Below, one piece after another: positions 6,578 through 10,897 of a DNA stretch of 64,000 nt (its first letter is position 1; each line of letters opens with the position of its first letter). The notes under the pieces are model-generated. The model saw only the letters and a list, made by a program, of their open reading frames with translations, did no database searches and was not told the origin of the DNA. The position numbers were made by a program, and so were the translations under genes. The stretch lies in assembly GCA_019187105.1 (NCBI GenBank), contig JABAQM010000001.1, positions 2,944,734 to 3,008,733 of the forward strand, in the 5' to 3' direction. Source of the stretch: Fimbriimonadaceae bacterium (GTDB lineage Bacteria; Armatimonadota; Fimbriimonadia; Fimbriimonadales; Fimbriimonadaceae).

Positions 6578-7663
6578 TTGAGGGCGAGAAACAAAGTCTT
6601 GGGCTACGCCGCGTTTCTCGGTGTTACGGTTGCGGCCCTGACCCTGGTACGGCCAAAGCCCGATATCTTCACCATTAGCCATTCGGCTCTGGCAAGCTCC
6701 ACCAGCGGTTTGCTGACCGCCTTGGGTGGGTTTTCCATCACGGTCTTGGCGGTTCTCCTCGGCCTGGAGGCGCTCGATTTCGATAAGGATCACGGAGAGC
6801 CTGCTGCGCACGGCGTCGCCGTACGCCATGTCGCGCTGTCCCTTGCGGTCGCTTGCATGACCTGCTTTGTCGGAGCGAACCTCATGGCTGAGGTTTCGGC
6901 GCAAGGCACGGCAATCGATAGCCGGCGAGGGGAAGCCCTGGAAAGCGTACGGCTGGGTCTCGAATCGTCAGGGGTTGCCGCCTCCGAGGTTTCCAGGATC
7001 CAGGCCGTTCTGGTCGCTCGCCAAAGGCCTTTGGCCTTCGATTCCGATATCCCAGCCGAACGCGAGGTGGCGAAGGTCGCGCCCAAGCTGGTCGTTCCGA
7101 ACCTCGACCAGGTGGTCAACGCATCCCCGCGCCGCCTGTTCATCGTCGCGAGCCTGAGTGCTTATCTGGCCTCCCTCGTTATCCTTCAGGCGCTCTCGTT
7201 CTTGCTTCGCATCCGCTTCCCGCGGGCCGAGGGCTTCACCGGGCTGCAAAACTTCGCGGTTCTGGGCATTGGGGCCATCCTGCTGGTCAAAGTCGCACAC
7301 ACCGCGAGCTACGGGATCGAGGGGCAGGCGTTCGTCGTGTCGCGGGTGGCACTCTTTGCGTTGATGGCGGGTGCGGCGTGGGCCTACGCGATCGCCACCA
7401 AGCGAACCCTCGCCCGGACGGGCCGGGTGCCAACCGCGCTCGAGGGATACACGCCGCTGGCGCCCTACACAGCCGTCCTTACTTGCACGATACTGAGCGC
7501 GGCATGGCTCGCGGCGACCTTTGCGAACGCAGGTCCGCCGACGTGGGTGGATCGTTGCCTGGTGATGGGCGGCGCTGGCTTATGCACCGCTCTGCTCCTT
7601 GTTATTCAGCTTGAGCAGCCAACGATCGATCTGTTGACTTCGCAGACCATTTCTCGCGCTTAA
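6578..7663 (+). CDS. Multi-pass membrane protein of unknown function
   Basis: A 361-residue integral membrane protein. Hydrophobic segments are visible near residues 9-24, 44-62, 90-105, 190-212, 225-245, 252-272, 302-322 and 330-345, so about eight helices. Between helices 3 and 4 lies a soluble segment of about 85 residues. I do not recognise a family and see no transporter signature. The start is uncertain: an in-frame TAA lies at 6551 and the first usable codon is TTG at 6578, with no clear SD. It converges with the 7660 protease gene; the two stop regions overlap by four bases. Confidence 0.6.
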   Translation: MRARNKVLGYAAFLGVTVAALTLVRPKPDIFTISHSALASSTSGLLTALGGFSITVLAVLLGLEALDFDKDHGEPAAHGVAVRHVALSLAVACMTCFVGANLMAEVSAQGTAIDSRRGEALESVRLGLESSGVAASEVSRIQAVLVARQRPLAFDSDIPAEREVAKVAPKLVVPNLDQVVNASPRRLFIVASLSAYLASLVILQALSFLLRIRFPRAEGFTGLQNFAVLGIGAILLVKVAHTASYGIEGQAFVVSRVALFALMAGAAWAYAIATKRTLARTGRVPTALEGYTPLAPYTAVLTCTILSAAWLAATFANAGPPTWVDRCLVMGGAGLCTALLLVIQLEQPTIDLLTSQTISRA

Positions 7664-8943
7664 GGCGTTACTTCCCAAACCGCCTGGTCCAAATACGCGG
7701 ACCAGACCCCGGCTTGTATGGGGGTGGTGCTCTTAAACTTGATTCTCGCTTGGATCTGTCTTGTGCCCGGTGCGACGAATCGCGCGGGGTTCGTAACCGC
7801 CGCGATCGTGCTGGTATATCCTAGGCCGACCACTCGATAGTCGACCACCTCATAAATGCCGGCGGAGTAGTCGTATAGCTCCACCGTCTGGCCAATGTTA
7901 GCAGCCGTAACCTTGGACGTCAGGCAGATCCTCAGCTTGCCGGGGACTGCGAAGCGAGAGGTTCCGTCGAGTACGAGCCTGACCGGAAAGTCGCTTTGAA
8001 ACGGGATGAGTCCCATCTTCACAACCAGCGGGTCACTATCCGCATTGAAAAGGCTCTCCAGGTTGCCGGAAACTTGCGTGCCACGCAGAATGGTGTAACT
8101 CTGCGGACGGGAAGTCGAGCGGTCGTACCCGATTACATCGAGGAGCCGGAACTCCGGTTCTCCCGGCTCGATCTTGATGCCGCTAAGGATCACCCAGTCC
8201 TGCGTCATCGAAGGGTTGTGGGGAGCCCAATCGCCATACGGGCCCTGGGTGCGTTGGTACTGGTTGTACTCCACGATGCGGTTTGTTCCGTTTATCGAAA
8301 AGTACGTGTGGACGTTGGTGTCGCCCGAGAAGAACCGGTTGCCGTTGCCGTCGTACCGGTACAGGTCGGTGGTGAACGCCAGCCAGTTGCCGACGCCTGA
8401 ACCGGTGCCAAGCACTTCGTCAAGTTCGTGGCAGATCATCGAGAAGAAATCAAACTTGCCAGGGATCGGACTGTTATGGTCAAAGAACGCGACGTCCGGG
8501 TTCACGTTGACGGCGCCGTCGAACCCGCCCTCACCGTTAAAGGTCATGAAGCCGGGAGTATTGAGTCCCAGCGCACGGCCATTGATGCTGTTGTAGGCAA
8601 TGCTGCCGAAGAAGTTGTTGTGGAGATGGCTCGTGGCCTCGGCATCATCGGCCGAGGTCGAGTCGCCGTACAGCTGGTTAATGGCGAGCCAGGCGTCGTT
8701 CCAGTAATAACCCCACTCGCTAATACCAAAGGCGTCGGTCTTTCGGAAGAGGACCTTTGCGGTTATCGGATCGGTGAACTTCCACTCGTAGTGGTCGATG
8801 ACGGCTTGGATGCTGGCAAGGATTTCCGCTGCATTCGGGTGGGAGGTCAGGCTGGAGTCGATAACGGCCTGTATCTTGAAACCCCACGCGGTGCTAGCTC
8901 CGCAGAGGGCAGCCAGGGCAACCCACGACCGGGCTCGCTTCAT
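7660..8943 (-). CDS. Secreted NF038122-like zinc protease
   Basis: A 427-residue exported protein with an N-terminal signal peptide (ending near STAWG). The zinc-binding signature CHELDEVLGTGSG starts at residue 171. This HExxExxG form, in which the second His of HExxH is replaced by Glu, resembles the HEI(D/S)EV(L/M)G motif of the NF038122 family of putative metalloproteases. The preceding segment (HNSPIPGKFDFFSM) and the following FRLLDVIGYD are also typical of metzincin-like domains, where the last Asp-Val-Ile-Gly-Tyr marks the Met-turn region. Residues from about 280 onward form a separate beta-sandwich-like tail. No PEP-CTERM tail is present. It is preceded by a leaderless promoter (TACAAT, seven bases, ATG). 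The substrate is unknown. Confidence 0.75.
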   Translation of the reverse strand: MKRARSWVALAALCGASTAWGFKIQAVIDSSLTSHPNAAEILASIQAVIDHYEWKFTDPITAKVLFRKTDAFGISEWGYYWNDAWLAINQLYGDSTSADDAEATSHLHNNFFGSIAYNSINGRALGLNTPGFMTFNGEGGFDGAVNVNPDVAFFDHNSPIPGKFDFFSMICHELDEVLGTGSGVGNWLAFTTDLYRYDGNGNRFFSGDTNVHTYFSINGTNRIVEYNQYQRTQGPYGDWAPHNPSMTQDWVILSGIKIEPGEPEFRLLDVIGYDRSTSRPQSYTILRGTQVSGNLESLFNADSDPLVVKMGLIPFQSDFPVRLVLDGTSRFAVPGKLRICLTSKVTAANIGQTVELYDYSAGIYEVVDYRVVGLGYTSTIAAVTNPARFVAPGTRQIQARIKFKSTTPIQAGVWSAYLDQAVWEVTP

Positions 8944-9081: not shown

Positions 9082-10764
9082 TTAGCGGATGTTGAAATAC
9101 TTGGCTTCGGGGTGGTGAACGATGATTGCGCTCGTGGACTGCTCTGGATCGAGCATGAACTCCTCGGTCAAGTGGATGCCGATATCCTGGGGTTGCAAGA
9201 GCTCCATCAGCAACGCCTGGTCCTCAAGATTAGGGCAGGCAGGATAGCCGAAGGAATACCGCGCGCCATGGTAACGGGCGGAGAAGAGAAGGCGCATCTC
9301 GTCCGGCTCCTGGTCGTCGATCCCCATCTCCTGGCGAATCTGGCGGTGCCAGTACTCGGCGAGGGCCTCTGCGGTCTCCACCCCCATGCCGTGCACGTAC
9401 AGATAGTTCTGATAGTCGCCCTTGGAGAACAGCTCACGTTCCAGAATGGACACGTCGGGCCCAACCGTCACGATGTGAAATCCGGCCACGTCCATCCGGC
9501 CGGACTCGACGGAGGCGAAGAAGTCCGATAGACATAGCCGCCGCCCATCCCGCTGACGGGGAAACCTGAATCGTCCTCGCTCCACGCGGGCGGATTCATC
9601 AAAAACAATGAGGTCGTTGCCCTGGCTCTGGACCCAGAAGTAGCCCCACTTGACCTGGGGCTTCAGGACCTTGGCCAGCTCTCGCTGCACCCGCTCCTGA
9701 ACAGGACGCGCCTCGCCCTCGAGCCATGCCGCGAACTCCGGATTGCCCATGCCCTCCGGCTTCTTGTATTGCCACTGGCCGCGCCAGAGGGCAACCGGAT
9801 TGATGTACTTGTAGATTTCGAAAATGTCGAACTTGGTCCACTTGCGCGCGCCGTAGAAGGGAAGCTTGGGGACTGGCACGTCCCTGCCAACGTCCGACGT
9901 CACGCCATCGAAGACAAAGAGCTGCGGATCGATATGGCCCACGCGGTGGCTGGCGACTCGTGTGGCCACCTCCTCTTCTTCCGTCGCAACCGCGACCGCT
10001 GGTGGTGCGTCTTTGCCGAGTTCTTCCATGAGCCGAAGGCCCTCGAACGCATCCTGCGCGTAAAAGACGTTGCCGTGATAGATGGACCTCAAATCCTGCT
10101 CGACATATCCCCGCGTGAGGGCCGCCCCCCCGAGAATGACGGGATACCGTTCCAACCCACGATCGTTCATCTCCAGCAGGTTGTCCTTCATGATGAGCGT
10201 GCTCTTGACGAGGAGACCGCTCATGCCGATGACCTGGCACTTGGTGGCGGCGGCCTGGTCGAGAATGTTGTTGATCGGCTGCTTGATGCCGATGTTCACG
10301 ACGCGATAGCCGTTGTTGCTGAGGATGATGTCGACGAGGTTCTTTCCGATGTCGTGGACGTCGCCGGCTACCGTCGCAAGGAGGATGGAGCCCTTCTCGG
10401 CGCCTTCCACCTTTTCCATCATCGGCTCAAGGTAGCGGACGGCCGACTTCATGACCTCGGCAGATTGGAGCACAAAGGGAAGCTGCATCTTTCCGGCGCC
10501 AAACAACTCGCCGACCGTCTTCATTCCATCGAGCAGGATGTCGTTGATGATGGCGAGCGGCGCATAGGCGGTGAGGGCATCGTCGAGGTGCCGCTCAAGG
10601 TTCTTCTTGATCCCATCGACGATATGCTTCTTGAGGGTGTCCTCCGGTCCAAGTCCCTCGAACGGATCGGCGCCGGAATCGACGGCCTTGACATTCTCAA
10701 ATCGCGCCATCAATTCGATGAGCGGATCGTACGAACAGGTCAGTTCTTCGGACTCTGGAGCCAT
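9082..10764 (-). CDS. metH: Cobalamin-binding and activation half of methionine synthase
   Basis: A 560-residue protein that matches only the C-terminal half of MetH. Residues about 15-120 form the helical cap, and the B12-binding Rossmann domain carries GDVHDIGK with the axial His at residue 137. Further on are the SGLLVKST and GGAALT segments that cradle the corrin. From about residue 250 it is the reactivation domain (FFGVQ-type core; RYSFGYPACPNLEDQ near the C-terminus) that binds AdoMet and accepts the reductive methylation. The homocysteine- and folate-binding halves, about 650 residues in Escherichia coli MetH, are absent and not encoded elsewhere in this window. The upstream region is non-coding, so this is not a truncation within the window. 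It must work with a separately encoded methyltransferase half. It has its own promoter region (TATTAT near 10824). Confidence 0.85.
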   Translation of the reverse strand: MAPESEELTCSYDPLIELMARFENVKAVDSGADPFEGLGPEDTLKKHIVDGIKKNLERHLDDALTAYAPLAIINDILLDGMKTVGELFGAGKMQLPFVLQSAEVMKSAVRYLEPMMEKVEGAEKGSILLATVAGDVHDIGKNLVDIILSNNGYRVVNIGIKQPINNILDQAAATKCQVIGMSGLLVKSTLIMKDNLLEMNDRGLERYPVILGGAALTRGYVEQDLRSIYHGNVFYAQDAFEGLRLMEELGKDAPPAVAVATEEEEVATRVASHRVGHIDPQLFVFDGVTSDVGRDVPVPKLPFYGARKWTKFDIFEIYKYINPVALWRGQWQYKKPEGMGNPEFAAWLEGEARPVQERVQRELAKVLKPQVKWGYFWVQSQGNDLIVFDESARVERGRFRFPRQRDGRRLCLSDFFASVESGRMDVAGFHIVTVGPDVSILERELFSKGDYQNYLYVHGMGVETAEALAEYWHRQIRQEMGIDDQEPDEMRLLFSARYHGARYSFGYPACPNLEDQALLMELLQPQDIGIHLTEEFMLDPEQSTSAIIVHHPEAKYFNIR

Positions 10765-10897
10765 ATCGTTAAAGCTTCAATATTGTGCATCTGGGACTCT
10801 GCTTGTCATCCAAAAAAAGGACATAATAGGGGTTGGAGGCGTCCCGCCGCGTTTGCTCTCCCCTTAGCGGCTGGCGGCGCTTCCTTATCCACCTCCG

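Follow-up and report, generated by a model that had tools for sequence, protein, structure and literature searches.

The window, a 64,000-nucleotide stretch of the genome of a Fimbriimonadaceae bacterium, carries on its minus strand an open reading frame of 560 amino acids at positions 9082-10764 (genome coordinates G000:C1:2953818-2955497), whose domains, in Pfam order, are the Cap, cobalamin-binding (Cob) and activation (Act) domains of the C-terminal half (C-half) of methionine synthase, MetH. The features of this gene are listed below, together with the gene for the N-terminal half (N-half), which holds the homocysteine (Hcy) and folate (Fol) domains.

9082..10764, minus strand: C-half of metH, Cap-Cob-Act (cobalamin carrier and reactivation half), 560 aa (Pfam, TIGR02082, alignment and fold match)
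10777..10779, minus strand: in-frame stop upstream of the C-half start (sequence)
10732..10764, minus strand: Linker II remnant, residues 1-11, ahead of the conserved YDPL motif, with low pLDDT at residues 1-31 (alignment and model)
10426..10641, minus strand: Cap domain PF02607 (B12-binding_2), residues 42-113 (Pfam)
10036..10389, minus strand: cobalamin-binding domain PF02310 (B12-binding), residues 126-243 (Pfam)
10354..10356, minus strand: codon of the His in GDVHDIGKN (residue 137), aligned with the cobalamin-ligating His region and invariant in 30/30 split and 19/19 fused rows (alignment)
9088..9711, minus strand: activation domain PF02965 (Met_synt_B12; SAM/reductive reactivation), residues 352-559 (Pfam)
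9232..9261, minus strand: RYSFGYPACP motif of the activation domain, residues 502-511 (alignment)
G000:C1:1092259-1094280, plus strand: N-half of metH, Hcy-Fol (locus L002), 674 aa (Pfam and TIGR02082)

Cap and cobalamin domains are recognized in the C-half by PF02607 and PF02310, and the SAM-binding activation domain by PF02965 (E = 1.8e-37). A Pfam search of the 560-residue protein found neither S-methyl_trans nor Pterin_bind, and its match to the MetH model TIGR02082 covers model positions 612-1182 of 1182 (E = 2.5e-160). Within the RYSFGYPACP motif, to which we assign a presumed SAM-binding role in the activation domain, R, G, Y507, C and P511 are invariant in 30/30 split and 19/19 fused rows, and the role of the cobalamin-ligating His is treated in PMC10567725 (partial text). 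The frame stays open for only 4 codons beyond the ATG before an in-frame stop is reached, so that no N-terminal domains are hidden in it. The original prediction, made from this DNA alone, that only the cobalamin/activation half of MetH is encoded here and that the homocysteine and folate domains are absent, is thus borne out. Its description of the upstream DNA as non-coding holds for the 133-bp intergenic gap and fails beyond it, where etfA, etfB and a 3-hydroxyacyl-CoA dehydrogenase/enoyl-CoA hydratase gene lie on the same strand. These ETF genes were considered as the source of the C-half's electron donor and dropped, since among the 36 loci L008-L043 this neighbourhood occurs at only one (L010). 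At window positions 7660-8943 a 427-aa protein without a Pfam match contains an ICHELDEVLG stretch, which we take to be suggestive of a metalloprotease.

The window genome (3.31 Mb, 2 contigs, 99.55% complete) encodes the missing half on the same chromosome, 1.86 Mb away, where a search for an N-terminal MetH, as had been proposed, finds a homocysteine barrel (S-methyl_trans, E = 2.7e-78) joined to a methyl-tetrahydrofolate barrel (Pterin_bind, E = 2.3e-37). The expectation of a partner elsewhere was therefore right, and the other methyl donor offered in its place is not needed. The two proteins tile TIGR02082 exactly, the N-half matching positions 2-612 and the C-half 612-1182 (model length 1182), and align with residues 4-597 and 599-1149 of Thermus MetH (8ssc), respectively. 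The first ~24 residues of the 674-aa frame are missing from most relatives' alignments, so the true N-half start may lie further in. With 639.6 bits for the N-half and 535.5 for the C-half, both fall below the single-chain cut-off of TIGR02082 (1010.85), which marks the split and lowers the case for a single-chain MetH, not that for a two-chain MetH; automatic naming with this model would consequently miss both halves, and these bacteria can be miscalled as methionine auxotrophs from their genomes.

Genome-wide profile searches found one Met_synt_B12 domain (PF02965), that of the window protein, and two S-methyl_trans domains (PF02574), one in the 674-aa Hcy-Fol protein and one in a 708-aa homocysteine methyltransferase-MTHFR fusion of the YitJ type, which is the genome's only MTHFR. 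The situations that the original prediction had itself named as damaging, a full-length MetH elsewhere or an N-terminal half adjoining the gene outside the window, did not materialize: neither kind of domain sits in a full-length MetH, none being found in the window genome by the PF02965 and PF02574 searches, and the partner lies at a distant site. Further B12-binding matches fall in a radical SAM protein, a MerR-type regulator and a sub-cut-off chance match that, judging from its sequence, is presumably IMP dehydrogenase-like. The window protein is the sole MetH-type carrier found in this genome. The halves are dispersed, with no neighbours in common. A SufS-like gene follows the N-half in the window genome and was rejected as a conserved neighbour; it occurs at 3 of 96 N-type loci, each of which is the window genome's own site again, and adjoins the N-half in no other genome's locus.

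Across the family a D[RK]RE[FY]-like motif lies within a few residues of the N-half's end and YDPL comes soon after the C-half's start, while fused relatives of the sister family read ...LIFDERREGYDPL..., with ~3 residues between. The breakpoint is consistent in the loci read, and the alignments place the cut at Linker II (Fol:Cap), which flexibly connects the catalytic N-half to the cobalamin C-half. This linker is disordered and mobile in the structure of full-length Thermus MetH (PMC10567725, partial text), and in human MTR a flexible joint separates the catalytic N-half from the cobalamin C-half, the halves appearing independent in cryo-EM (PMC13376404, partial text). An AlphaFold2 single-chain model of the C-half, used for fold identity only, has a mean pLDDT of 72 and a pTM of 0.49, with pLDDT below 50 at residues 1-31 and 252-279. 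The PDB structures that match the model best are C-terminal fragments of Thermus MetH and the full-length Thermus enzyme; next come the C-terminal half of E. coli MetH, its 649-1227 fragment and the human C-half. Over the whole length, the best of these reach TM-scores of 0.47-0.49, because the domain arrangement in the model is uncertain.

Laid end to end, the two halves contain the same five domains in the same order as fused MetH of E. coli, Thermus thermophilus (8SSC) and human (MTR), and they meet at the very boundary that structural biologists have used to divide the enzyme (E. coli fragment 649-1227; human N-half and C-half). They differ from fused MetH in being two chains from two distant genes, with Linker II cut and the halves untethered. 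Fragment studies of E. coli MetH by Goulding et al. in 1997 are likewise said to have used the Linker II boundary. MetH biochemistry leans on such artificial cuts and on the assumption that flexible linkers organize the domain exchanges. The same cut seems to have arisen once in evolution and to have persisted throughout a bacterial family, a natural experiment on whether a tether between the halves is needed.

Other natural divisions of methionine synthase fall elsewhere in the chain. In Thermotoga maritima (TM0268/TM0269) only the Act domain is separate. The MetH parts of Bacteroides thetaiotaomicron (BT0180/BT0249) also lie in separate genes, with Act alone detached (PMC7311316, partial text), whereas here Act stays joined to Cap-Cob and is not alone in one protein. 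Burkholderia phytofirmans resembles the window genome in that two genes (BPHYT_RS02310/RS02305) jointly encode all five domains, but its division is Hcy | Fol-Cap-Cob-Act (PMC7311316, partial text) and ours lies between Fol and Cap, so that Pterin_bind sits on the N-half and not on the cobalamin chain. In Phaeobacter inhibens, separate Hcy, pterin and corrinoid proteins (PGA1_c13370, c16040, c13350) act in trans and are all required for growth without methionine; this type lacks PF02965 and uses RamA-like reactivation (PMC5764234, partial text), whereas here Act is kept and the Hcy and pterin barrels are fused. The Phaeobacter type, also treated in part of PMC12366255, has been argued to have evolved separately and not simply by separation from classical MetH (PMC12478193, partial text), in contrast to the window enzyme, which a fission of classical MetH would have produced. 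For the MetH of Sphingomonas koreensis, which is in two parts, mild fitness effects are seen for each part (PMC7857596, partial text); together with the Phaeobacter data, this provides a precedent for methionine synthase modules acting in trans. Archaeal split MetE also forms methionine synthase from a catalytic and a folate-binding protein and belongs to an unrelated, cobalamin-independent family. That split MetH is known but uncommon, as the original prediction put it, is correct in its first part and too strong in its second: part of the GapMind paper (PMC7311316) counts, among 35 bacteria for which genetic data exist, 11 split cases, 9 of them MetH, at other breakpoints. Known divisions (Hcy | rest; rest | Act; three-part) do not, in the partial texts of these sources, include a Fol | Cap breakpoint, and a search of the open-licence literature, itself weak evidence of absence, found no paper on this breakpoint or on Armatimonadota MetH. 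The sequences point to an enzyme of ordinary activity whose form, two chains throughout the family, is unusual.

Among 85 genomes of the window's family (Armatimonadota, Fimbriimonadaceae-like), 74 encode both halves as separate genes. A C-half of the window type, whole or partial, occurs in 76 and an N-half in 78; fused MetH of the window type was found in none, and the N-half never lies in the C-half's frame (0/76). Six genomes hold one half only (G151, G159, G168, G181, G183 and G184), five of them less than 90% complete, and three hold neither (G189, 72% complete, and the 1.5-Mb genomes G199 and G200). Outside the family, 56 of 131 genomes of the phylum have a match across most of the C-half, 51 of them in frames of at least 1145 aa (fused) and 5 in shorter frames that reach a contig end; in the others the matches are partial, fall in short corrinoid proteins or are absent. 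With 74/85 split inside the family against 51/56 fused and 5 cut by contig ends outside it, the two-gene state is a family trait. Relatives at least 68% identical fall in 31 loci, of which 30 are titled with Armatimonadota-type names and the remaining one as Methanoregulaceae. G199 and G200 (97% complete) lack MTHFR as well as both MetH halves, and their gene content makes methionine auxotrophy possible.

Trees were built from 30 of the 74 split pairs and 19 fused rows (LG+G4); they are quick trees with long outgroup branches. A single branch, with an SH-aLRT of 100, sets the split rows apart from the rest in each of three trees (concatenated, N-only, C-only). The concatenated tree pairs the split clade with an Armatimonadota family whose MetH is fused (support 88), a sister relation not recovered in the N-only tree, the base of which is without resolution. 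Because all sampled split enzymes lie in one clade, the simplest reading is one ancient fission, in which an inherited, ordinary MetH would have been split once at Linker II in the stem of the family, giving birth to the C-half gene; the root itself would follow from the fused state of the other families. N- and C-half distances correlate weakly (r = 0.69 over 435 split pairs, compared with 0.95 among fused rows, whose range is wider), and this correlation was not counted as support. DVHDIGK of the GDVHDIGKN motif is present in 30/30 split rows, and the zinc Cys residues of the N-half (C of GxNC, CC of GGCCG) are invariant in the same 30/30. In four genome pairs (8 comparisons), dN is 0.12-0.20 and dS, where computable, 1.3-2.7, with saturation in 3/8; dN/dS is ~0.05-0.15 in the 5/8 comparisons giving a value. 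Both halves are under purifying selection.

Some relatives keep the two genes together. In 10 genomes of 5 genera (G153; G172; G173-G176; G185, G186; G192, G193), the N-half is divergent from metF followed by the C-half, an arrangement read directly in 8 genomes and by coordinates in G173 and G186. The gap between the halves in G172, G185, G176 and G192 holds metF and little else, with 33-63 nt ahead of the C-half match and 55-172 nt ahead of the N-half match. The trio protein at L139 is an MTHFR, scoring above the TIGR00676 cut-off, so that metF in the trio is the supplier of methyl-tetrahydrofolate; a methyltransferase-MTHFR fusion was found in none of the 10 trio genomes. Elsewhere metF lies directly upstream of the C-half close to a contig end (G187) or downstream of it (G163, G166), and it was not found in the flanks examined of the fused metH genes at L146-L152. 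Linked and dispersed halves require a minimum of 3 changes on the tree when G085 and G170, whose divergent halves are 12 and 7 kb apart, are counted as linked; the metF trio may be the ancestral arrangement. Flanks of up to 1.5 kb at 20 C-half and 20 N-half loci contain no cobalamin (B12) or SAM riboswitch, only unrelated rRNA and TPP matches. By frame length, 35 of the 85 family genomes carry a stand-alone metF only, 43 the fusion only, 2 both and 5 none; the two MTHFR forms are near-exclusive.

We read the window protein, with a probability of roughly 0.93, as one subunit of a MetH that naturally consists of two chains working in trans, the subunit that carries cobalamin and serves for its reactivation. 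Domain content, exact tiling, retained motifs, the lack of a second MetH or MetH-type carrier in searches of the window genome, fixation in the family and the single clade are the observations behind this reading. The low dN/dS values, metF between divergent halves in 10 genomes and the match of the predicted fold to MetH C-terminal structures also speak for it. By analogy with established MetH biochemistry, the two chains of this candidate complex would meet in the cell, with the 674-aa Hcy-Fol subunit making both catalytic contacts. The C-half would hold cobalamin between Cob and Cap, present cob(I)alamin to the Fol domain and take the methyl group from methyl-tetrahydrofolate, after which its methylcobalamin would be presented to zinc-bound homocysteine in the Hcy domain. 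Once oxidized to cob(II)alamin, the C-half would fold onto its own Act domain, where SAM and an electron donor would serve to re-methylate it. Against such a pairing stand the distance of 1.86 Mb between the halves and their lack of common neighbours in the window genome, along with the N/C correlation of 0.69, the lack of a riboswitch at the 40 loci searched and the 6 genomes with a single half.

A doubtful extension of the two-chain enzyme is that the cobalamin half of this untethered MetH diffuses freely as a shuttle shared by the Hcy-Fol subunit and the YitJ-type fusion. Without Linker II, the folate-sensitive gating that has been proposed for MetH of thermophiles would then be gone, and subunit stoichiometry, not linker conformation, would set the balance between methylation and reactivation. 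It is a good deal less probable still that the C-half is a general corrinoid carrier for other methyltransferases, such as the 708-aa YitJ-type fusion, besides or in place of the Hcy-Fol protein. Corrinoid proteins of anaerobic methyltransferase systems visit several partners, a free carrier could in principle do so as well, and the window genome encodes the fusion as its only MTHFR; however, 35 family genomes have a stand-alone MTHFR only (by frame length) and, where checked, as in the trio genomes, hold both halves, the N-half keeps both catalytic barrels and their motifs, and the C-half's companions in the clusters are metF and the N-half rather than the fusion.

That one or both halves are relics, with methionine supplied by another enzyme, is very improbable. 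A candidate for that enzyme is a 402-aa protein of the window genome (L104:1426-2634; G000:C1:2179370-2180443), whose only MetE part is the catalytic domain (Meth_synt_2, E = 2.4e-33) and which, from its sequence, is possibly a core methionine synthase or an unrelated enzyme. It lacks the MetE folate-binding half and scores far under every NCBIfam methionine synthase cut-off that it matched, whereas the two MetH halves are under purifying selection, keep all checked motifs and remain about 60-79% identical to those of the window genome across the family. An assembly or frameshift artefact is barely credible, for although frameshifted metH occurs in the phylum (Cap-Cob and Act in adjacent frames in G044; G212 in the family), the halves lie in different places in 74 independent genomes, some of them single-contig, with the same breakpoint in the loci read.

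A few variants and other records accompany the two-chain enzyme. Viral carriage of the gene was not found, and 140 plasmid records have a match of any length, most of the 20 listed being annotated metH. In one genus of the family, the MetH present is not the split enzyme but a distant one (29-38% identity); it is fused in G190, only part of it is seen in G191, and it may reflect replacement or misplacement. A lone Hcy-Fol N-half with the same end joint occurs in another family (L123, G080:C11:10900-12762) in a genome that also has a fused MetH; it lies on a 13-kb contig, the genome's contamination is 5%, and its tree placement is unsettled. At L149 (G044:C2:1142922-1146369), in a genus otherwise mostly fused, adjacent frames encode Hcy-Fol-Cap-Cob (846 aa) and Act (361 aa), which may represent a frameshift or a recent split. 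Finally, in the C-half at L124:2414-4786 (G193, also the genome of L037), Linker IV, between Cob and Act, is interrupted in frame by an insertion that leaves an 853-aa open frame and has a match to a REP-associated tyrosine transposase (Y1_Tnp, E = 8.3e-11; NF047646, 76 bits against a cut-off of 80).
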